Of a DNA stretch of 64,000 nt, positions 1,594 through 50,365 are shown piece by piece. The notes under the pieces are model-generated. The model was given only the letters and a program-made list of their open reading frames with translations, searched no databases and was not told the DNA's origin. Origin of the DNA: Acidimicrobiales bacterium (GTDB lineage Bacteria > Actinomycetota > Acidimicrobiia > Acidimicrobiales > Aldehydirespiratoraceae). The position numbers and the translations under genes are program-made. How positions within the stretch are numbered: the stretch's first letter is position 1; the number at the start of each line of letters is the position of its first letter. The DNA lies in NCBI GenBank assembly GCA_040219515.1, contig JAVJSI010000004.1:217050-281049 (forward strand). Reading direction: 5' to 3'.

Positions 1594-2321
1594 CCGAGCG
1601 CCCCGACCGCCCGCTGGACACCGCCTCGCTGGAGGCCGCCGTGGGGCGGGTGCGCGAGGAGCTGGACGCCGCCGCCCGGGTGTCGGGCCGCGGCGCCGGC
1701 GCCGTGGAGCTGGTGCTGGCGGGCAAGTACATCCCGGCCGAGGACACGCCCGCGCTGATCGCGGCGGGCGTCGGCGTGGTGGGGGAGAACCGCCTCCAGG
1801 ACCTCACGGCCAGGGCGCAGGTGGCCGCCGGCGCCCTCACCTTCGACTTCATCGGCCACATCCAGCGCAAGAAGGTGCGCGACATCCTCCCGGCCGTCCG
1901 GCTGATCCACTCCCTCGACTCGGAGAGGCTCGCCGCCGAGATCGCCCGGCGCGCGGAAGGTGAGGTGCGGGTCCTTGTCGAACTCAACATCGCCGAGGAG
2001 TCGACCAAGGGTGGTATCTTGCCGCAGAGCGTGCGGGCATTCGTGGAGGACGTGTCGGTCCATGCCGACCTCGTGATCGGTGGCCTCATGGCCATGCCCC
2101 CCAAGCAGGACGTCGCCGAGAACAGCCGTCCGTTCTTCGACCGGACCCGCCGTCTGGCCGAGGACCTGCGCACCGAGTGGGCCGGCCGTCACGACTTCCG
2201 CGACCTCTCCATGGGCACGAGCCAGGACTATGTCGTGGCCGCCGAGGAGGGTGCCACCATGGTGCGCGTCGGGCGCGGGCTCCTCGCGGACAGCGGAACC
2301 ACCGGCACGGGGATCTTGTAG
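1590..2321 (+). CDS. yggS: YggS family pyridoxal phosphate homeostasis protein
   Basis: This 243-aa protein has an alanine racemase-like N-terminal barrel. It binds PLP and buffers the free PLP pool without known catalysis of its own. The PLP lysine is in LAGKYI near residue 45. Family motifs GENRLQDL, FIGHIQRKK, HSLDS, LMAMPP and SMGTSQDYVVAAEEG follow in order. The ATG start overlaps the pgeF stop as ATGA, which rejects a much longer upstream reading of the same frame. The stop TAG is immediately followed by the sepF ATG, so these genes form one transcript. Confidence 0.93.
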   Translation: MTERPDRPLDTASLEAAVGRVREELDAAARVSGRGAGAVELVLAGKYIPAEDTPALIAAGVGVVGENRLQDLTARAQVAAGALTFDFIGHIQRKKVRDILPAVRLIHSLDSERLAAEIARRAEGEVRVLVELNIAEESTKGGILPQSVRAFVEDVSVHADLVIGGLMAMPPKQDVAENSRPFFDRTRRLAEDLRTEWAGRHDFRDLSMGTSQDYVVAAEEGATMVRVGRGLLADSGTTGTGIL

Positions 2322-2912
2322 ATGGCCGTCAGCGACCTCTGGCACCGCACTCTCGTCTACTTCGGCATGGCCGATGAGCCGGACGACTACGACGACGAAC
2401 TCGACGACGAGGACCGCCGCTACGACGAACGCGGCGAGCGCGAGCGCGACCGGGGGCGCGACCGGGACCGGCGCAGCAGCGCCCATGAGGACCTCGAGCG
2501 CAGCTACCGCGAGCGGCCGAACGTGCGCCGGCTGGGGCCGCGCCGGCGCGACAACGACTTCGACGACATCTTCGCCGACGAGGCGCCGCGGGGCCGGGCC
2601 CCGGTCATGCGCGCGGTCGAGAACCGCGCTCACCCGTCCGAGGTCCACCTGGTCGTGCCCAAGAGCTTCAACGACGCCCAGCAGATCGCGGACCGGTTCA
2701 AGGCCGGCGTGCCGGTGATCCTGAATCTCCAGAGCGCCGAGACCGATCTGGCCAAGCGCCTGATCGACTTCTCCAGCGGCCTCACCTACGCCCTCGACGG
2801 CGGGATGCAGCGCGTGGCCGACAAGGTCTTCATGCTGACCCCGCGCAACGTCGAGGTGTCGGCCGAGGAGCGCGCGCGCCTGCTGGAGAAGGGCTTCTTC
2901 AACCAGTATTGA
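2322..2912 (+). CDS. sepF: Cell division protein SepF
   Basis: SepF is a membrane-binding partner of FtsZ that ties the Z-ring to the septal membrane. This 196-aa protein has the expected three parts: a short N-terminal amphipathic start (SDLWHRTLVYFGM), a charged Asp/Arg-rich linker of about 80 residues, and a C-terminal SepF domain from about residue 95. That domain contains VHLVVPKSFNDAQQIADR, VILNLQ, KRLIDFSSGLTYALDG and VFMLTPRNVEV. The start follows the yggS stop with no gap. The neighbourhood matches the conserved actinobacterial arrangement beside the dcw cluster. Confidence 0.95.
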   Translation: MAVSDLWHRTLVYFGMADEPDDYDDELDDEDRRYDERGERERDRGRDRDRRSSAHEDLERSYRERPNVRRLGPRRRDNDFDDIFADEAPRGRAPVMRAVENRAHPSEVHLVVPKSFNDAQQIADRFKAGVPVILNLQSAETDLAKRLIDFSSGLTYALDGGMQRVADKVFMLTPRNVEVSAEERARLLEKGFFNQY

Positions 2913-3706
2913 GCGACTCGGGCGCACCCACCCTCGGGCTGATCGGCGCTGGCGCCATGGGCCGGGCCCTGGTGGCCGGCATCGTGCGCGGGACGCCCGC
3001 CGCGGCCGCCGGCCTGCGGGTGGCCGACGCATCCCCGGCCGCCGCCGAGGGCGCCGTGGCCGAGTCGGGCGGGACTGTGACGGACGCGGCGACCGCGGCC
3101 GGGGCCGACCTGGTGTGCGTGGCGGTCAAGCCGGCGGACCTCGGCGCCGTGCTGGAGGCCGTCCGGCCGTCGCTGCTCCCGGGGGCCGTGGTGTTGTCGG
3201 TGGCCGCCGGCTGGGACCTGGACCGGCTGTCCGGAGCCCTGCCCGGGGTGGCGCTGGTGCGCACCATGCCCAACCTCGCTGTGCGCCACGGCGCGGGCGT
3301 GGTGGCGGTGGCCCACCGCGGCGTGGATGGTGCGGGCCGGAGGATGCTCGACGGCCTGCTGGCGCCCCTGGGCGCCGTGGTGGAGCTGCCCGAGGCCCTC
3401 TTCCCGGTGGCGACCGCCCTCGCCGGCTCGGGGCCGGGGCTGGTGGCGGTGGTGGCGGAGGCCCTGGAGGAGGGGGCCGTCGCCGCCGGCCTCTCGCGCG
3501 CACAGGCGCGGCCGATGGTGGCCGGGGTGATCGCGGGCACCGCGGCCCTGCTGGCGGGGGGCGACGATCCCGCCACCCTGCGCCAGAGCGTCTCCTCGCC
3601 GGCCGGGACCACGATCGAGGGCATCGCGGTGCTGGAACGGGGCGCGGTGCGCGCCCACGTGGCCGACGCCGTGCGCGCCGCGGCCCGGCGTGCCGCCGAG
3701 CTGTGA
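2909..3706 (+). CDS. proC: Pyrroline-5-carboxylate reductase
   Basis: ProC catalyses the last step of proline synthesis, NAD(P)H reduction of pyrroline-5-carboxylate. The 265-aa protein begins with the Rossmann motif GLIGAGAMGRALVAG. It has AVKPADL in the NAD(P) domain, RTMPN near residue 113, and the C-terminal dimer and substrate segment LAGSGPG...LRQSVSSPAGTTIEGI. The start is a TTG in a TTGA overlap with the sepF stop; no better ATG or GTG lies nearby. The gene's place between sepF and yggT is common in Gram-positive division clusters. Confidence 0.93.
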   Translation: MSDSGAPTLGLIGAGAMGRALVAGIVRGTPAAAAGLRVADASPAAAEGAVAESGGTVTDAATAAGADLVCVAVKPADLGAVLEAVRPSLLPGAVVLSVAAGWDLDRLSGALPGVALVRTMPNLAVRHGAGVVAVAHRGVDGAGRRMLDGLLAPLGAVVELPEALFPVATALAGSGPGLVAVVAEALEEGAVAAGLSRAQARPMVAGVIAGTAALLAGGDDPATLRQSVSSPAGTTIEGIAVLERGAVRAHVADAVRAAARRAAEL

Positions 3707-3742
3707 TGATGGCTCGATGAAGCCGAAGCGGACGGGCGGGTG

Positions 3743-4006
3743 ATGGATCAGGTCGAGCTCTATGTGAGCGCGCTGTTCACGGTGTTCCTGATCGTGATCT
3801 TCATGCGGATCATCCTGTCGTTCGTGCCGCGGCCGCCGGTGGACGGGCCGCTGCGCGCCGTGTGGAACTTCGTCCACCAGAGCACCGATTGGTACCTCAA
3901 CATCTTCCGCCGCTTCATCCCGCCCATCGGGATGTTCGACCTCTCGCCGATCCTGGCGATCCTGGTGCTCTACATCCTGCGCGGCCTGGTCCTGTCGTTC
4001 TTCTAG
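3743..4006 (+). CDS. YggT family integral membrane protein
   Basis: This protein of about 87 aa has two membrane spans: residues 8-30 (ALFTVFLIVIFMRIILSFVP) and 62-86 (LSPILAILVLYILRGLVL). A short loop between them carries DWYLNIFRRFIPPIG, the YggT family signature. Members are linked to osmotic tolerance or division, but no biochemical role is established. GTG at 3740 and ATG at 3743 are both possible starts; the ATG is preferred. It follows proC and precedes the YggU-like frame, as in many bacteria. Confidence 0.85.
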   Translation: MDQVELYVSALFTVFLIVIFMRIILSFVPRPPVDGPLRAVWNFVHQSTDWYLNIFRRFIPPIGMFDLSPILAILVLYILRGLVLSFF

Positions 4007-4050
4007 TCCGAGGACCCGCGACCGTACCCGCCGCACGCGCACAGGACCCC

Positions 4051-4362
4051 GAGTGGCTCACCCGCACCGCCACGGGCGCGGTCATCGCGGTCAAGGCGGT
4101 CCCGCGGTCCCGTGCGACCCGCGCGGTGGGGGTACAGGCGGGGGCGTTGCGCGTCCAGATCGCAGCCCCGCCCCACCAGGGGCGCTCGAACGCCGCCCTT
4201 TGCGCCTACCTGGCCGACTGCGCGGGCGTGCGCGCCCCGGCGGTGCGCCTGCGCAAGGGGTCCGGGGGGGCGCGTAAGCTCATCGAGGTGGACGGGGATC
4301 CGGCAGACATCGCGCGAGCCGTGGCCGAGTCGCTGGCCGAGTTCACCGGGGGCACCCCATGA
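4051..4362 (+). CDS. YggU / DUF167 family protein, start codon unresolved
   Basis: The frame encodes a complete DUF167 domain: VKAVPRSRATRAVGV, then LRVQIAAPPHQGRSNAAL, then VRLRKGSGGARKLIEV. The coordinate given is where family-like sequence becomes recognisable, not a proven start. In this frame the nearest upstream start codons are TTG 3889 and ATG 3862, both deep inside yggT. The next one downstream, GTG 4126, would remove the conserved first strand. The gene ends in an ATGA overlap with lspA. The function of DUF167 proteins is unknown. The domain call is strong; the start is not. Confidence 0.7.
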   Translation, partial: EWLTRTATGAVIAVKAVPRSRATRAVGVQAGALRVQIAAPPHQGRSNAALCAYLADCAGVRAPAVRLRKGSGGARKLIEVDGDPADIARAVAESLAEFTGGTP

Positions 4363-4892
4363 GCTCCACCGGCACGCGGGAGGCCATCGGGCGCGCCATC
4401 GAGCGCCGCCAGCGGCGCCAGGTCCAGTCGCGCTGGCTGTGGGCGGTCGCGCTTGCGGGGCTGGTGTTCGCGGCCGACCAGCTGACCAAGATCCTGGTGC
4501 GCACAGGCCTCGACATGCGCCAGAGCATCGATCTGGTGCCGGGCCTGGACCTCACCCGTGTCAACAACACCGGGATCGCCTTCGGGCTGTTCCCCGGCCG
4601 GGCGACCATCGTCGCGGTGCTGACGGTCGTGGCGTTGTGCGCCATCGCCATCGCCCTGGCCGGCCTGGTGTCGCGCAACCCGCTGGTTGCGGCCGGGGCG
4701 GGCCTCCTGGTGGGCGGCAGCCTGGGCAACCTGGTCGACCGCGTGCGCCACGCGGCGGTCACGGACTTCGTGGACGTCGTCGGCTGGCCGGCGTTCAACG
4801 TGGCCGACGTCGGGATCGTCGTCGGCGCCGGCCTGATCGTGCTGGGGCTGCTGCGCGAAGAGCCCCGTCCCGAGCCCGACCCCGCGGCGTGA
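4359..4892 (+). CDS. lspA: Lipoprotein signal peptidase (signal peptidase II)
   Basis: LspA is the membrane aspartyl protease that removes signal peptides from prolipoproteins after lipidation. The 177-aa protein has four predicted spans and the family boxes AADQLTK, NNTGIAFGLF, GGSLGNLVDR and FNVADV. The catalytic aspartates fall at about residues 127 and 150. The basic N-terminus (RRQRRQVQSR) precedes the first span. It overlaps the DUF167 stop (ATGA) and the rluD start (GTGA). A lipobox-bearing substrate candidate is encoded at 30770-31708. Confidence 0.95.
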   Translation: MSSTGTREAIGRAIERRQRRQVQSRWLWAVALAGLVFAADQLTKILVRTGLDMRQSIDLVPGLDLTRVNNTGIAFGLFPGRATIVAVLTVVALCAIAIALAGLVSRNPLVAAGAGLLVGGSLGNLVDRVRHAAVTDFVDVVGWPAFNVADVGIVVGAGLIVLGLLREEPRPEPDPAA

Positions 4893-5860
4893 GCGACCGC
4901 CCGCCCGCGCCCCTGCGGGTGACGGTGGGGCCCGAGTGGGACGGCCGGCGCCTGGACGCCGCCGTGGGAGGGCTCGATGCCGTGGGGAGCCGCGCCGAGG
5001 CCCAGCGCCTGATCGAGGGGGGCCGGGTGCGGGTGGACGGCACCGTGCGCGCAAAGCGCCACACCCTCGCGGTGGGCGAGATGGTGGAGGTGGAGCCCCA
5101 GCAGGCACCCCTGTCGGCGCTCGTCCCCGAGGCCGGCGTGCCGTTCGGCGTCGTGTTCGAGGATGATCACCTGATCGTGGTGGACAAGCCTGCGGGCGTC
5201 GTGGTCCACCCCTCGGCCGGACACGGCGCCGGCACGCTGGTGCACGGGTTGCTGGCCCACGCGGTGGCCGGCGGCGACGACCCCACCCGCCCCGGGATCG
5301 TGCACCGCCTGGACCGCGACACCTCCGGGCTGCTGGTGGTGGCCAAGTCCGAGCGCGCCCACCGGCGCCTGCAGCGGATGATGAAAAAGCGCGAGATCGA
5401 GCGCCGCTACCTGGTGCTGGTGCACGGGCAGGCCCCCGCGGCGCGCACCGTCGAGCGGCCCATCGGCCGAGACCGGCGCACCCGCACGCGGATGTCCACC
5501 CACGTGCGCGAGGGGGAGGGGCGCGAGGCGCTCACCCACCTGCGGCGCATCGAGGCGCTGGCCGACTTCAGCCTGATGGAGGCCCGCCTGGACACCGGGC
5601 GCACCCATCAGATCCGCGTGCACCTCGAGGCCGAGGGGCTGCCCGTGGTGGGCGATCCGGTCTACTGCCGGCGCCCGAACCCGTTCGGCCTCGGGCGTCA
5701 GTTCCTGCACGCCGCGCATCTGGCGTTCCCGCACCCGGAGACGGGCGAGCCGGTGGACTGTTCGAGCCCATTGCCCGACGATCTGGCCGCGGTGCTGGAT
5801 GCCGCCCGCGTCCGCGCGGCCGCCGCCGCGGAACTGGCGCCCCCGACCCCCTGGGGCTGA
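4889..5860 (+). CDS. rluD: RluA/RluD family 23S rRNA pseudouridine synthase
   Basis: This 323-aa enzyme isomerises uridines in large-subunit rRNA. An S4-like RNA-binding domain occupies residues 12-85 (RRLDAAVGG, RLIEGGRVRVDG). The catalytic domain has VDKPAGVVVHPS and HRLDRDTSGLLVVAK, with the nucleophilic aspartate near residue 142, then LDTGRTHQIRVHLE. The GTG start lies in a GTGA overlap with lspA; the lspA-rluD pairing is widespread. The C-terminus is an Ala-rich tail. The exact rRNA positions modified cannot be read from sequence. Confidence 0.93.
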   Translation: MSDRPPAPLRVTVGPEWDGRRLDAAVGGLDAVGSRAEAQRLIEGGRVRVDGTVRAKRHTLAVGEMVEVEPQQAPLSALVPEAGVPFGVVFEDDHLIVVDKPAGVVVHPSAGHGAGTLVHGLLAHAVAGGDDPTRPGIVHRLDRDTSGLLVVAKSERAHRRLQRMMKKREIERRYLVLVHGQAPAARTVERPIGRDRRTRTRMSTHVREGEGREALTHLRRIEALADFSLMEARLDTGRTHQIRVHLEAEGLPVVGDPVYCRRPNPFGLGRQFLHAAHLAFPHPETGEPVDCSSPLPDDLAAVLDAARVRAAAAAELAPPTPWG

Positions 5861-5938
5861 GCCGCGCGGGGGCGCCGCGTTGATCGACGCGCCGGGCGCT
5901 GAGAGCATGGGCCGCGAGCCACCGACGGGCGGCATCCC

Positions 5939-8101
5939 ATGGCGACGCATCCCGGTAGTCCGACCACCTCCGAATCCCGGCCGCCGGACCACGGCCCTCC
6001 CCGAGTGCGCCTCTTCGGCGAGTTCACGATCGAGGCGGCGGGTCGTGTGGTGGACCTGCCCAGCGGGCGTCCCCGCGCGCTGCTCGCCTGGCTGGCGCTA
6101 CACCCCGGCAGCCATCAGCGGTCCCGCCTGGCGTCGCGCTTCTGGCCCGACATCCTCGATCGGAGCGCCCGCGCCAGTCTGCGGACCGCCCTGTGGCGGC
6201 TGCGGCGCGCACTGGGGGAAGGGGTGGTGTGGGCGGACCGGGAGCGGGCCGGCCTGCACGCCGAGCCCGCCGTATGGGTGGACACCCGGGCCTTCGACGG
6301 CCTCCTGGAGCAGGCGCGGCCCGAGGAGGCACTCGCCCTCGTCCGCGGGGAGTTGCTGGCGGGACTCGACGATGACTGGGTGATCGAGGAGCGGCGGTCC
6401 GTCGCCGACCGGGTGGCGGCGGCCATGGAGCAGATGTCGGCCCGCCGCGCGCGGGAGGGGGATCCCGCCGGCGCCCTCGACTGGGCGCGGCGCCGGGCGG
6501 CGCTCGACCCGCTCGACGAGTCCGCCCAGAGGGCGCTGATGGGCGCGCTGGCCGCCGCCGGCGATCCCGTCGGGGCGACGCGCGCGTACGCGCTCCTGCG
6601 CGAACGGCTGCGCGGAGAGCTGTCGCTGGCCCCGTCCGAGCAGACCCGGGAGCTGGCCCGTGCCATCGGCGCGGGCGGCGAGGCGGCCGCGCCGGGTGGC
6701 GGGCGCCCGGAGGAGTCGCAGCGCGCGGCGGTGCGGCCCGGATCCCGGCGCGGGGCGGGCCCCGGGCGACCCCGGGCGCTGCCGGCGCCGCTGGCCCTCG
6801 CGGGCGAGCGTCCGCTGGTGGGGCGCCGCCAGGAGATCGGCCGGCTGCTGGCGCTGGAGGCCGACACCCGCGCGGGCGGGGCTCGGACCGTCCTGCTCAC
6901 CGGCGAGGCCGGCATCGGCAAGACGCGCGTCCTGGCCGAGGTGGGCGCGGAGCTCGCGGAGGCCGGCAGCGTGATCCTGTTCGGATGCGCGGGTCGGTCG
7001 GCGCGCGCCGCGGGCGCGGTGCTCGATGCGGTCTCGGGCCATCCGGAGCTGGCGGATGGCGGGTCCGGGCCGGGGCAGGGGCCGGCGCTCGACGAGGTGG
7101 CCGACAGGGTGTGCCGGCTGGCAGAGGAGACTGCTGTGGTGCTCATGGTGGACGACGCGCACCATGTGGACGGGGCGGGGGCGGTCCTGCTCTCCCGCAT
7201 GGTGGCGGGCGCCGCCCGGCTGCCGCTGCTGGTGATCTGCGCGGTGCGCCCCGAGGAGATGGCCCCGGCCGGGGACCTGACGCGCCTCCTGACCTCGCTC
7301 GAGCGCCCCGACGACCCGGTGGACGTGGCGCTCGGGCCCCTCGACGAGGCCGCGACCGACGAGCTGTGCCGGCGCGCCGGCGGCGACGGGGTCCTCTCGG
7401 CCACGATCCAGCGCGCCAGCGGCGGCAACCCGCTGCTGGCCCTCGACATGGCCAGATCCGCGGGGGCCCCACCCGCCGGAGGCGGCACCTCCCGATCGGC
7501 GCCGATCGGTGCGCGGGCGCGGGCGTTCGTCGACTGGCGCCTGGCGGCGGTCGGCGAGGGCTCGGCCCGGCTGCTCGCGCTGGCGGCGGTGGCGGGACCG
7601 TCGTTCGAGCTGGCCGTGCTCGAGCGTGCGTGGGACCTCCCGGAGGACGAGCTGGCCGGCGGCGTGGAGGACGGCCTGCGTGCCGGGCTGCTGGTCGAGG
7701 ATCCCGGTTCGCCGGATCGCATCAGCTTCGTCCACGACCTGATCCGTGACGACCTGCTCTCACGGGTCGGCGCCGCCCGGCGCCGGCGGTTGCACGCCCG
7801 GATCGCCGCCGCGCTCGACGCGGACGGCACGGGGGACTCGGCCGATGCCGCCCGCCACTGGTGCGCGGCCGGGCCGGCGGGGGACCCGGATCTCGCGGTC
7901 GAGCGGGCGAGCGCCGCGGCGCAGAGTGCACGGGCGTCGCATCGCTTCGGTGAGGCCATCGAACTGATCAATGGGGCCCTCGCCCTGCTTGGCCGGGACG
8001 ACCCGCGCCGGCGCGCGCTGCTGGCGCGCCGGGCGGTCGACTACCTCAGCCTCGAGCACCTCCTGTGGACCCGCCTGTGCGGGGTCCGGGCCGATGGGTG
8101 A
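5939..8101 (+). CDS. BTAD/AAA-type transcriptional regulator, short at the C-terminus
   Basis: The 720-aa protein starts with a winged-helix domain (RVRLFGEFTIEAAGRVV, residues 20-105). A bacterial transcriptional activation domain with helical repeats follows to about residue 240. Then comes a STAND-type ATPase module: Walker A GEAGIGKTR near residue 322 and Walker B-like VVLMVDDAHHVDG near 400. Only the beginning of a C-terminal TPR region is present (FGEAIELINGALALLG) before the stop, while relatives in this class often continue for several hundred residues. It may be truncated or a naturally short form. Effector and targets are unknown. The next genes converge on it, so no downstream partner is suggested. 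Confidence 0.8.
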   Translation: MATHPGSPTTSESRPPDHGPPRVRLFGEFTIEAAGRVVDLPSGRPRALLAWLALHPGSHQRSRLASRFWPDILDRSARASLRTALWRLRRALGEGVVWADRERAGLHAEPAVWVDTRAFDGLLEQARPEEALALVRGELLAGLDDDWVIEERRSVADRVAAAMEQMSARRAREGDPAGALDWARRRAALDPLDESAQRALMGALAAAGDPVGATRAYALLRERLRGELSLAPSEQTRELARAIGAGGEAAAPGGGRPEESQRAAVRPGSRRGAGPGRPRALPAPLALAGERPLVGRRQEIGRLLALEADTRAGGARTVLLTGEAGIGKTRVLAEVGAELAEAGSVILFGCAGRSARAAGAVLDAVSGHPELADGGSGPGQGPALDEVADRVCRLAEETAVVLMVDDAHHVDGAGAVLLSRMVAGAARLPLLVICAVRPEEMAPAGDLTRLLTSLERPDDPVDVALGPLDEAATDELCRRAGGDGVLSATIQRASGGNPLLALDMARSAGAPPAGGGTSRSAPIGARARAFVDWRLAAVGEGSARLLALAAVAGPSFELAVLERAWDLPEDELAGGVEDGLRAGLLVEDPGSPDRISFVHDLIRDDLLSRVGAARRRRLHARIAAALDADGTGDSADAARHWCAAGPAGDPDLAVERASAAAQSARASHRFGEAIELINGALALLGRDDPRRRALLARRAVDYLSLEHLLWTRLCGVRADG

Positions 8102-8119
8102 TCGCAGGCCAGCCGGACC

Positions 8120-8410
8120 TCAGGGGCCGGCGCCCACGTCGGCCGGCGTCACGTCATCGATGATCTCGAGGATGTCCAGCACGGCGTGGTAGCCGAGCAC
8201 CTCGGCGTGCTCGTGCAGCCGCTCGGCGCTCGGGGCTCGGTAGATGCAGAAGCTCTCGAACTCCCCGTCCCGTCCGATGCACACGTGGCTGTGCTCCCAG
8301 GTGAGGTCGGTGAACCGCTCCACCGGAAGCCGTCCAGCGCGGATGTTCACCTCCTGCATCTCCGCCTCGCTGACGCCGGCGAAGCGCCTGTGCACGACAT
8401 AGCGGGGCAT
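8120..8410 (-). CDS. DUF4242 family protein (nickel-binding-protein-like)
   Basis: This 96-aa single-domain protein starts MPRYVVHRRFAG and contains TWEHSHVCIGRDGEFESFCIY and VLGYHAVLDILEI, typical of DUF4242. Some members resemble the Streptomyces nickel-binding protein SCO4226. The start at 8410 is chosen because a strong AGGAGG site lies 5 bases upstream; a longer reading would run through the neighbouring gene in another frame. The function is unknown. It is the downstream gene of a pair of same-family proteins. Confidence 0.8.
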   Translation of the reverse strand: MPRYVVHRRFAGVSEAEMQEVNIRAGRLPVERFTDLTWEHSHVCIGRDGEFESFCIYRAPSAERLHEHAEVLGYHAVLDILEIIDDVTPADVGAGP

Positions 8411-8442
8411 GCGGACCTCCTCCTGATCGACGCCGGCCGAGC

Positions 8443-8733
8443 CTAGCCGAGACCCGAGGACGGGTCGTCCCGGGCCACGTCGGTGAGGCTCACGCGCTCG
8501 ACCTCGTGGCACGCGAGGCCCGCGGCCGCCGCGTGTTCCTCGATGGTGCCGGCTCCGTCCGCCTCGTAGACGCAGATGCTGCCCAGCCAGCCATCGCCCT
8601 CGTCGAGGATGTAGCTGCGCACCTTGCGCATCCGCGAGGCACGCTCGGCGGCCGCGGCGTTCGATCGTGCGTCGACCGCCTCGATGTCCTCGGCGCGGCA
8701 CAGGTGGCGCCGGCGGATGGTGAAGAGTTCCAT
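8443..8733 (-). CDS. DUF4242 family protein, second copy
   Basis: A second 96-aa DUF4242-like protein lies 32 bases upstream of the first on the same strand. It starts MELFTIRRRHLCRAEDIEAV and contains YILDEGDGWLGSICVYEADG and HAAAAGLACHEVERV, matching the fold of its neighbour at low identity. A GAGAGGGGG site precedes the ATG. Two divergent copies in tandem suggest an old duplication and perhaps a heteromer. Metal binding is possible by analogy to SCO4226 but is not shown here. Confidence 0.75.
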   Translation of the reverse strand: MELFTIRRRHLCRAEDIEAVDARSNAAAAERASRMRKVRSYILDEGDGWLGSICVYEADGAGTIEEHAAAAGLACHEVERVSLTDVARDDPSSGLG

Positions 8734-8881
8734 GATGGCCCCCTCTCGGTTCGACTGATGTCACGATCCTCGCGCGGCGGCGTCACCCGGGGTGTCACCG
8801 ACGGCGTCAAACCCGCGCGGCGAGGACGTCATCGACCCGAGCCGACGTCGATGCGGGCGGATGGACGCCGCCCCGGGCGCC

Positions 8882-8910
8882 GTGACCGCCGCGGCCGATC
8901 CCGGTAGACT
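8882..8910 (+). promoter_or_regulatory. Probable promoter of the rpsB-tsf operon
   Basis: A TAGACT -10 hexamer at 8905-8910 lies 17 bases after GTGACC at 8882-8887, a good vegetative spacing. Transcription from about 8917 would give a leader of roughly 115 nt before the rpsB GTG. The leader is C-rich with short inverted repeats and could carry ribosomal-protein autoregulation, though I recognise no named structure. The 298-base gap 8734-9031 holds no gene that I can see. Confidence 0.55.
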
Positions 8911-9031
8911 CTCCCGTCGGATCATCAACCCTCTCCCCGGCCCGACCACCCGTCGGCGGGTGCCCGCACCGCGCGGGTCCCGACGGAGCGCGCCGGCTCA
9001 TCACCACACCAAACCGCAGCGAGGAGTCACC

Positions 9032-9883
9032 GTGCCTACCGTGACCATGAAGCAGCTGCTGGAGTCCGGGGTTCACTTCGGGCACCAGACGCGGCGCTGG
9101 AACCCGAAGATGAAGCGCTACATCTTCGGCGAGCGCGCCGGGATCTACGTGATCGACCTGCAGCAGACCATCCAGCTCCTGGATGAGGCGTGCGATGTGG
9201 TGCGCGCCATCTCCCAGCGCGGCGGGACGGTCATGTTCGTGGGCACCAAGAAGCAGACCCAGGACGCCGTGGCCGACAACGCCAAGCGGTGCAACATGCC
9301 GTACGTGTCCCACCGCTGGCTGGGTGGCCTGCTGACCAACTGGGGCACCATCTCCCAGCGCATCCGCCGCCTGCACGAGCTGCGCAACCAGAAGAAGGGC
9401 GGCCAGCTGGAGCTGCTGCCCACGCGCGAGCGCCTGGCCCGCGAGGCCGAGCTGACCAAGCTCGAGACCAACCTCGGCGGCGTGGCCGACATGCAGCGCC
9501 TGCCCGACGCGGTCGTGATGGTGGACCTCAAGAAGGAGGCCATCGGTGTGCGCGAGGTCAACCGCCTGGGCATCCCGGTGATCGGCCTGGTGGACACCAA
9601 CGTCGACCCGGACGACGCCACGTACGTCATCCCGGCCAACGACGACGCCATCCGCTCGTGCAACCTGATCCTGGGCGCGCTGGCCGACGCGGTGCTCGAA
9701 GGACGCGGCGCCGTGGCCAACCAGGAGATCGTGGCCTCGGCCGAGGAGATCCCCGCCGAGGAGACCCCCGCGGAGGCCCCGGCTGCCCAGGCGGCCCCCG
9801 AGGCACCGGCAGCCGCCGACCCGGCCCCCGACGCCCCGGCCGCCGAGCCCGCCACCACCCCGACCGAGGAGCCCGCATCGTGA
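9032..9883 (+). CDS. rpsB: 30S ribosomal protein S2
   Basis: S2 is a small-subunit protein. The 283-aa product begins with [20 protein letters not shown] and has the family segments [26 protein letters not shown] and [13 protein letters not shown]. The last 50 residues are an Ala/Glu/Pro extension common in actinobacterial S2. The GTG at 9032 is chosen because GCGAGGAG stands just upstream and the product then starts like other S2 proteins; upstream sequence in frame is non-coding. It overlaps tsf by 4 bases. Confidence 0.96.
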
Positions 9884-10485
9884 GCACAGCCGTCACCGCA
9901 GCCATGGTGAAGGAGCTGCGCGAGCGCACGGGCGCCGGGATGATGGACTGCAAGAACGCCCTCACAGAGGCCGGCGGGGACATCGAGTCCGCCACCGCCG
10001 AGCTGCGCAAGAAGGGCCTCGCGGACGCCGCCAAGCGCGCCGGCCGCGCCGCCAACGAGGGCCTGGTGGACAGCTACATCCACGCCAACGGCCGCGTGGG
10101 CGTGCTGCTGGAGGTCAACTGCGAGACCGACTTCGTGGCCCGCACCGAGCAGTTCCAGGACTTCGTGCACGACCTGGCGCTGCACATCGCCGCCATGAAG
10201 CCGCAGTTCGTCTCCATGGACGAGATCCCGGAGTCGTTGGTCGCCTCCGAGCGCGCGATCTACGAGGAGCAGGCCAAGGACGTCCCCGAGAAGGCCCGCG
10301 AGAAGGCCGTCGAGGGCAAGCTGAACAAGCAGCTCAAGTCGCTCTGCCTGCTCGACCAGGAGTTCGTCAAGGACGGCGCCGAGAAGAAGCCGCGCACCAT
10401 CGAGGACCTCCGGGTCGAGGTGGCCGCCGGCCTGGGCGAGAACGTCACCATCCGCCGCTTCGCCGTGTTCGAGCTTGGCCAGTAG
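9880..10485 (+). CDS. tsf: Elongation factor Ts
   Basis: EF-Ts exchanges GDP for GTP on EF-Tu. This is the short, roughly 200-aa form. The N-terminal UBA-like part reads [19 protein letters not shown], and the core carries [14 protein letters not shown], the EF-Tu contact motif, followed by the dimerisation segment. The GTG start is in a GTGA overlap with rpsB. The rpsB-tsf-pyrH-frr order is the standard bacterial one. Confidence 0.96.
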
Positions 10486-10543
10486 CGGCCCGGCCGACGA
10501 GGTGGACCACCGCCAGGCCCCCGTCTCCGGCGGGGGCGCAGGC

Positions 10544-11266
10544 GTGGCCTTCACGCGGGTCGTCCTGAAGCTCTCGGGCGAGGCCCTGATGGGCTCCGAG
10601 CCCTACGGCATCGACCCCGTGCGCATCACCGAGGTGGCCCGCCAGGTGTCCTCGGCGTGCGACCGCGGCGTGCAGGTGGCGGTCGTCGTGGGGGCGGGCA
10701 ACATCTTCCGCGGCCTGCAGGGCGCCTCCATCGGCATGGACCGGGCCACCGCGGACTACATGGGCATGATCGCCACCGTGCTCAACGCGCTGGCCATCCA
10801 GGACGCCATGGAGAAGCTCGGGCTCGTCACCCGCGTGCAGTCGGCCATCTCGATGCAGGAGGTCGCCGAGCCGTACATCCGCCGGCGCGCCATCCGCCAC
10901 CTCGAGAAGGGCCGGGTGGTCATCTTCGCCGGCGGGACGGGCAACCCGTTCTTCACCACCGACACGACGGCGGCCCTGCGGGCGCTGGAGATCGGCGCCG
11001 AATGCATCCTGATGGCCAAGAACGGGGTGGAGGGCGTCCTGGACGCCGACCCGCGTGTGGTCCCCGAGGCCCGCTTGATCTCGCGCATCAGCCACATGGA
11101 GGCCATCGAGCGCGGCCTCAAGGTGATGGACACCACGGCCCTCACCCTCTGCATGGACAACGGGTTGCCCATCCATGTGTTCAACATGGGCGACGAGCGC
11201 AACATCGGCCGGCTGCTCGAGGGCGAGCGGGTCGGCACGATGGTGGTCACCGATCAGGAGGCGTAG
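10544..11266 (+). CDS. pyrH: UMP kinase
   Basis: PyrH phosphorylates UMP to UDP. From GTG 10544 the product is 240 aa, the usual size, beginning just before the conserved [12 protein letters not shown]. Later motifs are [40 protein letters not shown] and [14 protein letters not shown] at 10475 inside tsf would add 23 residues of poor similarity; the GTG has a GCGGGGGC stretch upstream and is preferred. It ends directly at the frr ATG. Confidence 0.93.
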
Positions 11267-11821
11267 ATGCAGGAGCTACTGAACGAGGCCAAGCGGCGCA
11301 TGGAGGGCGCGGGCAAGGCGCTGGCGAACGAGTTCGCCACGGTGCGCACCGGCCGTGCCTCCACCGCGCTGCTGGACCGCGTCACCGTGGAGGCCTACGG
11401 GGTCCGCACGCCCCTCAACCAGCTGGCGGGGGTCAGCACCCCCGACGCGCGCCTGATCGTCGTGCAGCCCTACGACCAGAGCATCATCGGCTCCATCGAG
11501 AAGGCGCTCATGGAGTCCGACATCGGGCTGAACCCCAGCAACGATGGCAAGCTGATCCGGCTGCCGGTGCCGCCCCTCACCGAGGAGCGACGCAAGGAGA
11601 TGGTCCGCCTGGTGCACAAGATGGCCGAGGAGGCGCGCGTCGCGGTGCGCAACGTCCGTAAGGACACCCTCAAGGATCTGAAGGCCGAGGAGAAGGAGGG
11701 CGGCATCTCCCGCGACGACCTCGGTCGCGCCGAGACGGAGGTCCAGAACCTCACCGACGCCGAGGTCAAGGTCATCGACGACCTGCTGGCCCACAAAGAG
11801 GCGGAGATCCTCGAGGTCTGA
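11267..11821 (+). CDS. frr: Ribosome recycling factor
   Basis: RRF splits post-termination ribosomes together with EF-G. The 184-aa protein has the standard length and signatures: FATVRTGRAS, LDRVTVEAYG, PLNQLAGVSTPDAR, NPSNDGKLIRLPVPPLTEERR, and the C-terminal helix AEVKVIDDLLAHKEAEILEV. The ATG follows the pyrH stop without a gap, so translation is probably coupled. Confidence 0.97.
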   Translation: MQELLNEAKRRMEGAGKALANEFATVRTGRASTALLDRVTVEAYGVRTPLNQLAGVSTPDARLIVVQPYDQSIIGSIEKALMESDIGLNPSNDGKLIRLPVPPLTEERRKEMVRLVHKMAEEARVAVRNVRKDTLKDLKAEEKEGGISRDDLGRAETEVQNLTDAEVKVIDDLLAHKEAEILEV

Positions 11822-11845
11822 CCGGCCGGCCGCGGCGACCCACCC

Positions 11846-12619
11846 ATGGCGCTCTCCTCGCGCTGGCGCGCGGCCCGGTCGGCCATCGGCTTGGCCCGCG
11901 CCCCACGCCCCGCCCCGTCCGCGCCCGGCCCCGCCGTGCCGCGGTCGGTCGCGATCATCATGGACGGCAACGGGCGCTGGGCGCGCGAGCGTCGGCTGCC
12001 GGTCGGCGCCGGCCACCGCGCGGGTGCGCGCGCGCTCAAGCGGGTCGTGCGCGCGGCGGGTGACGCCGGCGTGGAGGACCTGACCATCTACTCGTTCTCC
12101 ACCGAGAACTGGAGCCGGCCGGTCGACGAGGTGGAGGACCTGATGGCCCTCTTCGTCGAGCTGATCGACCGCGAGATGCAGGAACTCCACGCCGAGGGCG
12201 TCCGGATGCGCTTCATCGGCCGCATCGACCGCCTGGACGACTCGTTGCGCGACAAGATCGCCCAGGCCGAGGCGCTGACGGCCGGCAACTCACGCCTGCG
12301 CCTGTTCATCGCCATGAACTACGGGGGCCGCCAGGAGATCGTGGACGCGGCGCGGCGCTTCGTGGCCGCGGAGGCCCCCGAGGCCGGCATCGAGGACTTC
12401 GCCCGGCACCTCTACGCCCCGGACATGCGCGACCCCGAGCTGGTGATCCGCACCAGCGGCGAGCGGCGCCTGTCGAACTTCCTCCTGTGGCAGACGGCCT
12501 ACGCCGAGCTGCACTTCTCCGAGCGGATGTGGCCGGACTTCGACGAGGAGGGCCTGGCCGAGGCGCTGGCCGACTACGCCGGCCGCGAGCGACGCTTCGG
12601 GGGGCGGACGGCATCCTGA
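11846..12619 (+). CDS. uppS: Isoprenyl transferase (undecaprenyl diphosphate synthase)
   Basis: UppS makes the C55 carrier lipid for cell-wall synthesis by cis-prenyl condensation. The 257-aa protein carries the catalytic IIMDGNGRWA near residue 35, then GHRAGARALKRVV, YSFSTENWSRP and the C-terminal ELVIRTSGERRLSNFLLWQ and WPDFDEEGL. It has a somewhat longer basic N-terminus than E. coli UppS. It is followed by cdsA, as in most bacteria. Confidence 0.95.
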   Translation: MALSSRWRAARSAIGLARAPRPAPSAPGPAVPRSVAIIMDGNGRWARERRLPVGAGHRAGARALKRVVRAAGDAGVEDLTIYSFSTENWSRPVDEVEDLMALFVELIDREMQELHAEGVRMRFIGRIDRLDDSLRDKIAQAEALTAGNSRLRLFIAMNYGGRQEIVDAARRFVAAEAPEAGIEDFARHLYAPDMRDPELVIRTSGERRLSNFLLWQTAYAELHFSERMWPDFDEEGLAEALADYAGRERRFGGRTAS

Positions 12620-19862: not shown

Positions 19863-19936
19863 CGGGGCGTGGCGCAGTCTGGTAGCGCACCCGGCTGGGG
19901 GCCGGGCGGTCGGAGGTTCAAATCCTCTCGCCCCGA
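19863..19936 (+). tRNA. tRNA-Pro (anticodon GGG)
   Basis: A full cloverleaf folds. The acceptor stem is CGGGGCG with CGCCCCG and the D stem is GCGC/GCGC. The anticodon stem is CCCGG/CCGGG around a CTGGGGG loop with anticodon GGG. The T arm is GGAGG with loop TTCAAAT and closes with one G-U pair. The discriminator is A and CCA is not encoded. It reads proline CCC codons. A long terminator hairpin follows at once. Confidence 0.93.
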
Positions 19937-19948
19937 TTCCATGTGAGG

Positions 19949-19982
19949 ACACCAAGGGCCACCCGAGGGTGGCCCTTGGTGT
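19949..19982 (+). terminator. Terminator hairpin after tRNA-Pro
   Basis: A perfect 16-bp stem (ACACCAAGGGCCACCC and its complement) is closed by a 2-base GA gap in the linear sequence and followed by TTGGGGGTT. Its 26-base core (19953-19978) recurs exactly at 23757-23782, beyond the SIR2 gene. Confidence 0.75.
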
Positions 19983-20112
19983 TGGGGGTTCGCGGCTTCG
20001 CCTGCCCGGATGCCGCTTTGGGCGTCCACCCCGCCTTTGGCGCGCGAGGGTGGTCCGCGAGCTCGCGATGTGCGTGGCAGGATCCTCTGCGACCGCGGTG
20101 CGGGGGAGCGCT

Positions 20113-23100
20113 ATGTGGATCACCAGCGATGTGGAACTGCCTGAAGCGCTTGTAGCGGCCCAGGCTGCCGGGGAGCTCGTCCTGTTCGTCGGCGCGGGCG
20201 CGTCCGTCGACGACCCGTCCGGCCTCCCGTCGTTCGTCGATCTCGCACGAGACTTGGCAGAGCGCGCAGCAGTCCCTTGGCCTCAAGAGGACGAGGAGGG
20301 GCGGCATATCCCGATCGACAGTTTCCTCGGTGCGCTGCCTCCGGATTTTGAGACCCACCGGCACGCGGAGGCCCTGATCGATGTGGAGGGCTCCCTGCCG
20401 AACGCAACCCACGCTGCGCTGGTGCGGGTCGCCTCTGCCCCCGGCCCGATGCGGATAGTGACGACGAACTTCGACCGGCATCTCTCGGCGGCCGCCGGAC
20501 ACCGCAGCGTGGAAGTGCCGAACCTGTGGTCGGGCCCGGCCCTTCCGCTCGGAGGCGAGTTCTCGGGAATCGTTCATTTGCATGGAGCGATTCGCCGGAC
20601 GCCAAGGCAGATCGTGCTCACCGACCACGATCTCGGAAGGGCCTATCTCACTGAGGGGTGGGCGACGCGCTTCCTGCTGTCGCTCTTCAACCGCTTCACC
20701 GTGCTTTTTGTCGGCTACTCCCACGACGATCCGATGATGAAGTACCTCGCGCTCGGCCTGCCGTCCGGTGGGTCACGTTTCGCCTTGACCACCGAGCAGG
20801 ACGCCGCACTCGGGAAGTGGAGCCGGCTGGGAATCCAGCCGGTTGCGTACCCCTTGCGTGGCGGAAGCCACACAGCGCTCGTAGTAGCGCTCGATGCTTG
20901 GGCGACTCGGTCGAAGATGGGGAGGACCGACCACCGAGCGAGGATTCACGACATCGTCGCGGGCGGACCTCCGCTTTCGCCCGAGGACCGCGACTACGTC
21001 CTCGAACGACTGCGTGTCGTCGACGGTGCTCGAGACTTCGTGGCAGCCGTCTCCTCACGGGCGACGACAGGGCAACGTGCGTGGCTCCAGTGGTTGGAGA
21101 CCGCTCCGAGCTTCGAAGGGGGCTTTCGCGGGGTGGCCGCAACGGATGACGGCGCCGCAGTGCTCATGCACTGGTTCTGCCAGTCGTTCATCGAGGATTC
21201 GGCGTTGCACGAAGCCGGGCTTAATGCGGTGCTTCATCTGGGCCACGATTTCAGGGACGACCTCTACGACGCGGCGCTCTGGAGTACTCACAAGTTGGCC
21301 GAGACAAACGAGACCAGTGCCGGGCGGTGGAGGATGCTCTTGGCGACCTCCTTGGGGCGGGCGGCACCTCGACGGGCAGGTCACCTGGCGCTGAGGCCCC
21401 GAGGGGCGCCTCCGCCCTGCGCGTCATCCCTCCGGGCAATGCTGAGGCCGTTTCTCCGGCTTCGGGAGGCGTTTCGCCTGGCCCCCAACGAGCCCGATGG
21501 GCTCACGCTTCCAGATGCCGAGGTTGGCTGGTCCGTCGAGGAGTATGCGCTCAGCGAGTCCATCCAGGAAGCAATCGCTGGAGCGAAACCGGGAGATCCC
21601 GCTCTGGGCAACGTCTTGGAGGGGGCACTGCACGCGTCGTACGACCTCCTCGACGCATACTTCGTTGACCGGGGGTGGGACCAGCTCAGCTTGCGAAGGT
21701 CGGCTATCGGAGAAGACGCGCGGGATTCGTACAGGCGCCCCATCGACGCAGTCATCGACGGTCTAAGGACTCACGGAGAGCGGGCGCTGCCCCTCGATCC
21801 GCGCCTCCCAGAGCGCTGGTGGTCGACCGAACGCGATCTCTTCCGCCGGCTTGCGCTGCATCTAGTCGCCATCGACCGACGTCGATCGCCTGATGAGAAA
21901 CTCCAGTGGCTAGTCGAGCGCTCGCTACCGGCGGATCATGGCTTAAAGCACGAGGTCTTTGCGGTCCTTGCCGGCGCCTACGGCTTGGCGTCCCAGTCCT
22001 CCCGCGATCGCCTTCTCGGGCACGTGATGCGCGGGCCCGACGACTACGAGCGCTACAACGTTCTCGTCTGGCTCCGTACGGTGGCGCCCGACTGCTCGGA
22101 GGTGCGCGCAGCTCACGAAGAAGCAGAAACCGCTCACCCCGAGTTCGCGCCGCGAGATCATCCGGACTTCAACTCTTGGGTGGACGTCGGCGTCTGGGGC
22201 GGATCGCGGCCTCTTGCCCCAGAGGACCTGATCGAAGCTCTCGATGATGAGGACTGGCCGATCGTCGCCAAGCTGCTCGACGATCCCTACGACGGCGCCC
22301 ACGGCCTACCGGAGTGGTATGACGCCATCGATGTGGTTCGGGTGACCGCAGAGACGCGGCCCGAGCTGGGGCTGGCACTCATCGAGTTCGTTGACTGGAG
22401 GTCGATGGATGATGGCCGGCGCGGAGAGGTGCGCCGCTGCGTCGTCGAAGGGTGGACTCGGGCGGACACGGGCCCGCGCATCAATGAGGTCCTCGCCCTG
22501 GTCTCAGCGGAGGCCGCCCGCGTTGAGTCTGCTCGCGCGATCACCCGATTCTTGGCTGAGCAGGTTCGGGCTCGGGTAGGTGAGGCCGAGTGCCCGGAAA
22601 CCTCCAGGATGAGGAGCATCGCGCAGAGCGTCTGGCAGGCCCACGGCGATTCATTCGAATCCTCTGGAGACCCGCTGTCGTTTGCCCCGCTCTACCTCAA
22701 CTCTTGGCCCGGAGACCTCGCAGAGTACTGGCTGCTCGAGATAGACCGGCGATGGAGGACGGTGCGGGGGAGCGTGACAGGGCTCGATGATCCCGAGAGA
22801 GAGGCCATCGAATCGCTGCTGAGCGGGCCCGCTGATGCGCTTTCGGCGATCCTCCCAGTCCTGACTGGATCGTTGGCATTTCTTTTCGAGGTCGACGAGG
22901 AGTTCACATCGGCGTCCGTGCTTCCGCACTTCCGGCCTGGCCCCACGGCACCCCTGGCGTGGTTCTCGTTCCTGAATCGTCCTCGGTACACCGACCGAAT
23001 CCTTGAAGCGGGACTGCTTGCCAGCTCCCGAGAGGCGTGGGACTGGATCGGGACTCCCTCTTTCGATCCAGACCGGACACGGCAGTTCTACCGGTTCGTA

Positions 23101-23622
23101 TCGTCGATTCTGTCGTTCGCAGGAGTCTCTCCCGGCCAGCGACGGGACCTACTGGCGAACAGCGTGAAGGGGGCGGACGGAGCTCACGCGACAGCATTCG
23201 CGCAGACGGTCGTGGACTTCCTCCGCTCGGACGATGTTGACGGTGCTGCGGTTTGGGAACTCTGGCTCGGGGACCACATCTCGAGGCGACTCGACGGGCT
23301 ACCCAGGGTTGCGTCGGCCGACGAGCTTGCCGCGTGGGCAGACGCCGTGCCTCTTCTCGGCATCTGCATCGCCGCAGGGGCTGATCTCTTGAAGGGGCAC
23401 GGGATCGGCTTCGGAGAACGGGTCTCCGTGCCGGACATCGAGTTGGTGTTCGACGAGATCGCCGACTTCGTAGCCGAACGCGTGAGCAACTCCTCGCCCG
23501 AGACGTCGCCCCAGATTGGCTTTCACGTTGATCGGCTCCTGCAAAGCGGCCGCACGTCGCTCGGGGACGTTCGAGCTGAGGCCTTGGTCGAGGCGGCTCG
23601 CGATGCGGGGTTCGTGGACTAG
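20113..23622 (+). CDS. Large SIR2-family protein, probable phage-defence NADase
   Basis: The 1169-aa protein has an N-terminal SIR2 domain of about 280 residues. FVGAGASVDD near residue 27 is the NAD-binding GAGxS, VTTNFDRHL near 118 supplies the TTN(F/Y)D motif, and HLHGAI near 156 holds the catalytic-type His. LFVGYSHDDPMMK follows near 197. The remaining roughly 880 residues are helical and resemble the C-terminal region often annotated DUF4020 in SIR2 proteins; I see no P-loop. SIR2 domains in large proteins such as DSR and Thoeris ThsA destroy NAD upon phage infection, so abortive defence is inferred. The ATG at 20113 is preferred; ATG 20068 is possible. Codon use is clearly less GC-rich than its neighbours, which points to transfer. 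Confidence 0.78.
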   Translation: MWITSDVELPEALVAAQAAGELVLFVGAGASVDDPSGLPSFVDLARDLAERAAVPWPQEDEEGRHIPIDSFLGALPPDFETHRHAEALIDVEGSLPNATHAALVRVASAPGPMRIVTTNFDRHLSAAAGHRSVEVPNLWSGPALPLGGEFSGIVHLHGAIRRTPRQIVLTDHDLGRAYLTEGWATRFLLSLFNRFTVLFVGYSHDDPMMKYLALGLPSGGSRFALTTEQDAALGKWSRLGIQPVAYPLRGGSHTALVVALDAWATRSKMGRTDHRARIHDIVAGGPPLSPEDRDYVLERLRVVDGARDFVAAVSSRATTGQRAWLQWLETAPSFEGGFRGVAATDDGAAVLMHWFCQSFIEDSALHEAGLNAVLHLGHDFRDDLYDAALWSTHKLAETNETSAGRWRMLLATSLGRAAPRRAGHLALRPRGAPPPCASSLRAMLRPFLRLREAFRLAPNEPDGLTLPDAEVGWSVEEYALSESIQEAIAGAKPGDPALGNVLEGALHASYDLLDAYFVDRGWDQLSLRRSAIGEDARDSYRRPIDAVIDGLRTHGERALPLDPRLPERWWSTERDLFRRLALHLVAIDRRRSPDEKLQWLVERSLPADHGLKHEVFAVLAGAYGLASQSSRDRLLGHVMRGPDDYERYNVLVWLRTVAPDCSEVRAAHEEAETAHPEFAPRDHPDFNSWVDVGVWGGSRPLAPEDLIEALDDEDWPIVAKLLDDPYDGAHGLPEWYDAIDVVRVTAETRPELGLALIEFVDWRSMDDGRRGEVRRCVVEGWTRADTGPRINEVLALVSAEAARVESARAITRFLAEQVRARVGEAECPETSRMRSIAQSVWQAHGDSFESSGDPLSFAPLYLNSWPGDLAEYWLLEIDRRWRTVRGSVTGLDDPEREAIESLLSGPADALSAILPVLTGSLAFLFEVDEEFTSASVLPHFRPGPTAPLAWFSFLNRPRYTDRILEAGLLASSREAWDWIGTPSFDPDRTRQFYRFVSSILSFAGVSPGQRRDLLANSVKGADGAHATAFAQTVVDFLRSDDVDGAAVWELWLGDHISRRLDGLPRVASADELAAWADAVPLLGICIAAGADLLKGHGIGFGERVSVPDIELVFDEIADFVAERVSNSSPETSPQIGFHVDRLLQSGRTSLGDVRAEALVEAARDAGFVD

Positions 23623-23666
23623 GCCGCTGGGCTCGCCATCCGGTGTCGCGCGCTGGCGAGACTCCG

Positions 23667-23697
23667 AACCGCTGCTTCTGCCAGAGAAGCAGCGGTT
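23667..23697 (+). terminator. Terminator of the SIR2-family gene
   Basis: AACCGCTGCTTCT and its exact complement AGAAGCAGCGGTT form a 13-bp stem with a 5-base loop, 44 bases after the stop codon. It lacks a long T run, as is usual in this GC-rich genome. Confidence 0.65.
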
Positions 23698-23753
23698 GGG
23701 CGGTCCGCAGCCGGCCCGCGCGGCCGGCCCGCGCACCCCGATCGATGCGGGTA

Positions 23754-23785
23754 CATCAAGGGCCACCCGAGGGTGGCCCTTGATG
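23754..23785. terminator. Second copy of the tRNA-Pro terminator hairpin
   Basis: A 15-bp stem with a GA centre repeats the 26-base core of the hairpin at 19949-19982; outer pairs differ in a compensated way (CATC/GATG versus ACACC/GGTGT). It stands between the SIR2-family gene and the convergent ferritin-like gene and could terminate both. The sequence just before it (CACCCCGAT) also resembles the 3' end of tRNA-Pro. Confidence 0.7.
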
Positions 23786-41740: not shown

Positions 41741-41790
41741 AGGTAGCGCATACGGGATTTGAACCCGTGTTACCGCCGTGAGAGGGCGGC
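41741..41790. repeat. Left attachment site, 50-bp copy of the tRNA-Glu 3' half
   Basis: These 50 bases are identical to 50290-50339. They contain the anticodon stem-loop, variable region, T arm and 3' acceptor strand of the minus-strand tRNA-Glu but not its 5' half. It is therefore an integration scar and not a tRNA gene. Confidence 0.9.
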
Positions 41791-41826
41791 TGCATGGTGC
41801 CCATTTGCAGGGAGAACGTGGGAACA

Positions 41827-50289: not shown

Positions 50290-50339
50290 AGGTAGCGCAT
50301 ACGGGATTTGAACCCGTGTTACCGCCGTGAGAGGGCGGC
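50290..50339. repeat. Right attachment site, 50-bp repeat within tRNA-Glu
   Basis: Identical to 41741-41790. It covers the 3' half of the functional tRNA-Glu, so integration left the tRNA intact. Confidence 0.9.
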
Positions 50340-50365
50340 GTCCTAGGCCCCTAGACGAATGCGCC
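50293..50365 (-). tRNA. tRNA-Glu (anticodon CTC)
   Basis: A complete cloverleaf folds on the minus strand. The acceptor GGCGCAT pairs with ATGCGCT (terminal G-U). The anticodon stem CCGCC/GGCGG encloses CTCTCAC with anticodon CTC, and the T loop is TTTGAAT. CCA is not encoded. It serves as the integration target of the element to its left. Confidence 0.93.

Follow-up and report, generated by a model that had tools for sequence, protein, structure and literature searches.

A divergent DSR1-type SIR2 protein in an Acidimicrobiales bacterium, most likely a single-gene anti-phage defence protein

The best described counterparts of the protein considered here are the defence-associated sirtuins DSR1 and DSR2. 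Anti-phage activity of DSR1 has been published, and passages in reviews and later papers (PMC10952713, PMC10973363) credit it to a SIR2 domain that hydrolyses nicotinamide adenine dinucleotide (NAD), that is, to a SIR2 NADase; the first of these sources also states that inhibition of phage by DSR1 does not kill the cell. For DSR2, two reports (PMC10973363, PMC10981675) describe NAD+ hydrolysis with N133 and H171 as catalytic residues, a C-terminal part that binds the phage tail tube protein, whereupon the SIR2 catalytic pocket opens, and a SIR2 domain that lacks the zinc insertion and has a blocked acyl-lysine channel. The present study concerns a single gene for a SIR2 protein in a stretch of 64,000 nucleotides from an Acidimicrobiales bacterium (assembly GCA_040219515.1, contig JAVJSI010000004.1, positions 217,050 to 281,049), called the window below. 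The gene is real and intact, and it is largely explained: most likely, as judged from its sequence, it encodes a divergent DSR1-type SIR2 defence protein with a clade of its own. The interpretation offered by the original prediction, a single-gene effector of the SIR2 NADase type and likely phage sensor, is retained.

As had been claimed, positions 20113-23622 of the forward strand translate without a stop into 1169 residues, the NAD-binding and catalytic motifs are all present (FVGAGAS, TTNFD and HG), and there is no P-loop, neither G....GK[ST] nor [AG]....GK[ST] occurring in the protein. The reading frame is not a chance one, since it matches SIR2_2, the sole Pfam family found at E<=1 (residues 115-213, E 4.3e-16), and a Rhodococcus ruber plasmid protein with 35% identity across 95% of the window protein (E 1e-143). 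The same frame is already open from position 19969, upstream of the gene; the ATG at 20113 was taken as the start because GGGGGAG lies just ahead of it and because the closest relative begins alike (MWVTG-DVDIPEALIDAH in the window protein versus MWITS-DVELPEALVAAQ).

The SIR2 domain was also recognized by the Dsr1 model of PADLOC (residues 2-276, E 1.3e-32) and by NCBIfam Dsr1 (NF041818), with 162.3 bits, or 141.9 bits in a search of the genome. GAGxS, TTNxD and H157 are invariant in all 12 rows of one family alignment and in all 11 rows of another, the two alignments having three rows in common. N119 and H157, kept in every row of both, would by motif be the counterparts of N133 and H171 of DSR2, and their presence is what places the SIR2_2 domain in a broadly defined DSR1 superfamily. 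In structure comparisons with VIA-align, the predicted domain was nearest to known NADases: DSR2 (Z 23.7, root-mean-square deviation (rmsd) 3.2 over 250 residues), ThsA (Z 23.4, rmsd 2.8, 244 residues) and KomC (Z 22.0, rmsd 2.8, 243 residues), followed by Avs5 (Z 17.0-18.1) and SPARSA (14.8-19.6), with the deacetylase-type Sir2 proteins near 13, namely the Sir2-Af1-type structure 1ici (Z 13.4, rmsd 3.6, 209 residues) and CobB (Z 13.2, rmsd 3.4, 191 residues). This order of Z-scores, obtained with a predicted model, supports a SIR2 domain of the NADase type.

The larger part of the protein, a C-terminal remainder of about 870 residues, had been described as uncharacterised. It does have known relatives: profile methods show most of it to be homologous to the corresponding region of DSR1. 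A full-length hhalign comparison of the family (nine sequences) with Dsr1 and near relatives (eight) gave E 4e-79 over 1084 columns. When the SIR2 domain was removed and only residues 300 onwards were compared, the same two groups matched with E 1.2e-31 over 736 columns, four strict Dsr1 proteins alone with E 4.7e-23 over 638 columns, and the four near relatives alone with E 7.9e-22 over 742 columns, while nine decoys (one reversed and eight column-shuffled profiles) yielded E-values of 0.39-0.87. Segments 461-700, 701-930 and 931-1169 match separately and collinearly (E 1.2e-9, 5.3e-11 and 1.9e-10). With the default HMMER filters, a hidden Markov model (HMM) built from the C-terminal region of the family detected 16 of 18 rows not belonging to the family and missed L024 and L025; with the filters off, all 18 were found with E 2e-46 to 2e-13, these two at 7e-15 and 2e-13, and the best of 20 shuffled rows reached E 0.21. 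Two SIR2 proteins of a distant group, from Burkholderia and Rhizobium, also match the C-terminal profile (E 3.4e-14). By profile comparison, the C-terminal region is thus of the DSR1 type, weakly so for residues 300-460, and the homology makes the architecture that of DSR1. Mean column identity among 11 family members is 0.24 in the C-terminal region versus 0.40 in the SIR2 domain; this lower conservation is weak evidence for a sensor, with which it would fit.

The family comprises the window protein and 11 relatives, among them proteins of Actinomycetota and Acidobacteriota and one on a viral contig. All three Dsr1 models of PADLOC match 12/12 family rows at E<=1e-5. A tree of 30 proteins separates the 12 family members from the remaining 18 with a support of 100 in the Shimodaira-Hasegawa-like approximate likelihood ratio test (SH-aLRT). 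Within these 18, eight Dsr1 proteins (three annotated dsr1 in their records and five close to those) lie on one side of a branch (100) and ten other SIR2 proteins on one side of another (96). The partner of the window protein in the tree is the Rhodococcus protein (99). The root is arbitrary and nine rows including the query deviate from the alignment in letter make-up, so that the tree gives no order of nearness among the groups. As far as sequences can tell, the clade is distinct from Dsr1 as named by the databases.

The family is sporadically distributed. Matches were found in 6/296 genomes of the class (own included, E<=1e-20), in 3/51 genomes of the family rank (own included, one with a damaged copy, E<=1e-10) and, with a profile search, in 3/396 genomes of the phylum (own included, E<=1e-40); the gene was not found in the six other genomes of the genus (E<=1e-10), three of which are 66-82% complete. 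The closest match is the Rhodococcus ruber plasmid protein, and when genome contigs were scanned with the single protein, one full-length relative came up, a Silvibacterium protein (Acidobacteriota) with 29% identity. A search for a phage-borne form gave no match in 50,697 phage records, the plasmid collection gave none at the nucleotide level, and the viral contigs gave none with the single protein. Scanned with the family alignment, the viral contigs yielded 31 loci, of which one is a full-length member (L043) and the rest include Dsr1-like and other SIR2 proteins. That member lies at 5983-9504 of its locus on a 52.8-kb viral contig, has a G+C fraction at third codon positions (GC3) of 0.31 compared with a median of 0.58 for nine other open reading frames (ORFs), and is followed by an ORF of 298 residues that matches nothing in Pfam or PADLOC at E<=0.001.

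Very probably, the window protein is a single-gene, NAD-depleting anti-phage defence protein of the DSR1 superfamily, in a distinct clade, with a C-terminal sensor and a SIR2 effector. In the resting protein, the N-terminal SIR2 NAD+ hydrolase would be kept inactive. The C-terminal alpha-solenoid would recognize some product of the phage, perhaps a virion protein in the way that DSR2 recognizes the tail tube; binding would release the SIR2 domain, and the freed domain would deplete NAD+, so that phage growth would stop. The simplest reading, by analogy, is that it would be the same two-part device as DSR2, a solenoid sensor joined to a SIR2 NADase, and it would be expected to have NADase activity, to be activated by a phage product, to oligomerise and to protect the cell.

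Several results weigh against a DSR1-type defence protein. The equivalog cut-off of NF041818, 1400 bits, is not reached by the window protein. Chains of Sir2-HerA have Z-scores of 12.9 and 15.8 against the predicted SIR2 domain, so that Z does not cleanly part NADases from deacetylases and is, by itself, no proof of a NADase-type domain. Segment 300-460 matches the Dsr1 side weakly (E 0.004, probability 8%), and the C-terminal sequence of the window protein alone has no significant BLAST match outside the family (best E 0.47, Dsr1-side proteins tried), which is why this region looks uncharacterised. The structure prediction that had been proposed as a check placed the SIR2 domain nearest to NADases (the Z-scores for DSR2 and Avs5 are given above), but the full-length AlphaFold2 model, built from 11 sequences, is poor: it has a predicted local distance difference test score (pLDDT) of 68 and a predicted template modelling score (pTM) of 0.40. 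Lastly, the neighbourhood in the window is housekeeping in character and no defence island, and defence neighbours were seen in 3/11 relatives' loci scanned, one of them strong and the other two (L074 and L075) mutual close relatives.

The gene order in the window is dxr-rseP-ispG-proS-tRNA-Pro, the gene, and then a ferritin-like gene on the opposite strand and a CDP-alcohol transferase gene; these names were inferred from Pfam families, Ferritin_2 being just below the Pfam cut-off. For the relatives, 20 neighbour proteins were hand-picked among the larger ORFs, nearly all from a home-made caller and with no random-locus control, at loci L002, L008, L009, L010, L011, L016, L027, L028, L043, L074 and L075 (L012 was left out). 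The gene in L011 has HmaB on one side and HmaC on the other, and farther out follows a type IIG enzyme; all of these match strongly. In L075 and L074, the neighbours are a helicase and a type IIG/DrmMI-like methylase, with partial model matches. Apart from these, no PADLOC family was found at E<=0.001 among the neighbours scanned in L008, L009, L010, L027, L028 and L043. Matches of an L002 protein, which we take to be ABC-transporter-like, to mad3/mad8 and of a WD40 protein in L016 to HEAT-ARM_XIII (both PADLOC) were set aside as general family resemblance. According to the annotation of plasmid records, Shedu, retron and TIR genes are found close to Dsr1-side relatives. It should be noted that in L011 (region 50-12350) the family gene is on the strand opposite to the HmaB and HmaC reading frames, as if inserted into an Hma defence operon; Hma is listed as a candidate defence system by PADLOC's authors (PMC8565338).

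A strict DSR2 mechanism, with a tetramer activated by the phage tail tube protein, would differ from the preferred explanation only in trigger and assembly and otherwise overlaps with it; in these two respects, it is judged unlikely. It would account for the fact that, when the full-length model is searched with Foldseek, DSR2 entries occupy ranks 1-33, with E from 1.9e-8 upwards, and the C-terminal region of DSR2 is also mainly alpha-helical, as stated in one report (PMC10973363). However, these whole-model matches have an rmsd of 28-39 and a TM-score of about 0.2, their good alignments cover the SIR2 domain, and rmsd values of this size mean that the whole-chain match is no superposition. 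The full-length model shows the SIR2 domain (residues 1 to about 270) and, after it, a remainder that is helical nearly throughout and of low confidence in places; the inter-domain geometry of this model is unusable, and the model has no match at E<=0.001 in the viral structure library. In a separate model of the last 630 residues (pLDDT 76, pTM 0.60), these form a HEAT/ARM-like solenoid, which best matches the generic repeats of PP2A-A and importins with Z 12-16, a level that the tool warns is common among helical repeats; Foldseek found nothing for this model at E<=0.001, and DSR2 is not among the best 50 C-terminal structure matches listed, which is neither proof of its absence nor evidence of a different fold. 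In addition, NCBIfam Dsr1 matches 9/9 of the family members tested and Dsr2 only 1/9 (E 0.0036).

That the protein is a regulatory SIR2 enzyme, ADP-ribosylating or deacylating a host protein and without a role in phage defence, is considered improbable. Sirtuin motifs are common to NADases and deacylase-type enzymes alike, and the housekeeping neighbours would suit such a function. However, the two marks of classical deacetylase sirtuins are both missing: the window protein has no CxxC zinc pairs and no match to PF02146 (SIR2) at E<=1, a family that two relatives approach at E 0.07-0.09, below the cut-off. Furthermore, the predicted fold is nearest to NADases, the C-terminal region is homologous to that of DSR1, and the distribution is sporadic down to the level of the genus. 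A decayed or inactive immigrant gene, as exemplified by the damaged copy in another genome of this taxonomic family (G319; L028, 5212-7885), with an in-frame TAG and pieces in different frames, is very improbable here in view of 1169 open codons, intact catalytic residues and a GC3 that varies little from one end of the gene to the other (0.73-0.79 across nine blocks).

The gene seems to have been acquired horizontally, to judge from the combination of its low GC3, the lack of a match in the six other genomes of the genus searched and a pair of hairpins that bracket it (Table 1). Its GC3 is 0.76; 49 other ORFs predicted in the window have a median of 0.94, and two of them are lower than the gene. 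This median is raised because the ORF caller favours high GC3, but four named housekeeping genes nonetheless have values of 0.94-0.97. In L011 and L016, the GC3 of the family gene is not below that of its neighbours. The gene is flanked by a 44-base repeat, each copy of which folds to a perfect hairpin (z -5.8 and -5.2), and the 4.02-Mb genome assembly contains the 24-base core of the hairpin just two times, once on either side of the gene. The stems of the two copies, read directly, differ by a compensating base-pair change, which suggests that the duplication is not recent. Because copy 1 lies directly behind tRNA-Pro, the natural reading is an insertion of a single gene with a tRNA terminator duplicated at its ends, although the hairpin may have been copied for some other cause. 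No consensus terminator was found, and neither repeat hairpin has a T-run. The ferritin-like gene on the right has no match in 50 other genomes of the family rank (E<=1e-20), and identity among the sister ProS proteins is no higher than about 43-48% (no tRNA was found in the four sister loci scanned), so that a site without the gene is not comparable and the insertion is one that we infer.

Table 1. Features of the locus, with positions counted from the first letter of the window
Feature	Position	Strand	Residues, basis or remark
Gene for the DSR1-like SIR2 protein, 1169 codons and stop	20113..23622	+	Uninterrupted ORF
SIR2_2 domain, predicted NADase type	20113..20922	+	Residues 1-270; Pfam, motifs, predicted model; Z 22-24 to DSR2, ThsA and KomC
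Motifs in the SIR2_2 domain			Residues: GAGAS 27-31, TTNFD 117-121, H157-G158, D173, G201/D206
C-terminal region, nearly all-alpha, DSR1-homologous, presumed sensor	21010..23619	+	Residues 300-1169
Part equivalent to Pfam DUF4020 in relatives	23137..23526	+	Residues about 1009-1138; window protein itself without score
GGGGGAG, Shine-Dalgarno-like	20102..20108	+	4 nt before ATG; read directly
tRNA-Pro(GGG)	19863..19936	+	Between proS and the gene
Hairpin-bearing repeat, copy 1	19938..19981	.	Right behind tRNA-Pro
Hairpin-bearing repeat, copy 2	23742..23785	.	Behind the gene; 86% identical to copy 1
Second, different strong hairpin	23660..23705	+	Starts 38 nt after the stop codon, z -6.6; possible terminator, without T-run

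The tRNA neighbour mentioned by the original prediction holds for the window and was not encountered elsewhere: a conserved tRNA link found no support, as no tRNA stands beside the gene at 12 relatives' loci (ARAGORN, within the reach of the contigs; that of L002 starts 121 bases ahead of the gene and L012 is cut inside it), and the tRNA neighbour looks peculiar to this genome. The nearest approach is a tRNA-Thr call in L010, about 2 kb away and within a predicted ORF. A conserved flanking repeat likewise found no support, with no comparable repeat at the five relatives' loci tested. The minus strand of the window also has two tRNA-Glu(CTC) calls, at 41742-41809 and 50291-50365, the first of only 68 nt.

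The resemblance to DUF4020 noted in the original prediction stands for the relatives and not for the window protein. DUF4020 (PF13212) is found near the C-terminal end at E<=0.1 in 6/9 aligned family members and exceeds the gathering threshold of 22.7 bits in five of them (L002, L008, L009, L010 and L011), L027 staying below it; the window protein has no match at E<=1 and hence does not reach the threshold, and its closest relative, L016, has none at E<=0.1. The scan left out L043, L074 and L075, and L012 is without that part. The word DUF4020 occurs in no paper of the literature library searched. It is a tentative idea, and one that we hold to be somewhat doubtful, that the clade might be a further kind of defence-associated sirtuin, the third after DSR1 and DSR2, marked by a DUF4020 end and with a phage trigger of its own, spreading as a one-gene cassette whose footprint here would be the duplicated tRNA-Pro hairpin.

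These findings unite in one superfamily DSR1, the SIR2-DUF4020 proteins and a C-terminal region that looked like an orphan, which are kept apart in the databases searched. Proteins annotated just as "SIR2 family protein", for example that of the Rhodococcus ruber plasmid, are predicted to be single-gene phage sensors. No structure of DSR1 was listed in a profile search of the sequences of solved structures, and therefore a member of the clade could give the first view of this type of sensor.

Among the known systems, Avs5 (SIR2-STAND) shares with the window protein the SIR2 effector domain, but the latter is without Walker A, and Pfam shows no family of NTPases in it at E<=1. ThsA of Thoeris shares the SIR2 fold, but its chains have about 480 residues and carry a SLOG domain, as stated in one paper (PMC11204291), whereas the window protein has a helical solenoid in the model and no SLOG in Pfam at E<=1, and a Pfam scan of six neighbours gave no TIR family. 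The SIR2-DUF4020 proteins resemble the C-terminal region of the family through the six scoring members, with the difference that the window protein and L016 score nothing. DSR2 likewise has the SIR2 fold followed by a helical C-terminal region, in a protein of 1005 residues. From DSR1 (NF041818, PADLOC Dsr1), the window protein differs in being about 100 residues shorter, in reaching 162 of 1400 bits, in lying on the other side of the branch (SH-aLRT 100) and in belonging to a family with a recognizable DUF4020, which is found in 0/8 Dsr1-side proteins; it shares with DSR1 the N-terminal SIR2 domain, the same catalytic residues, a collinear homologous C-terminal region and the organisation as a single gene.

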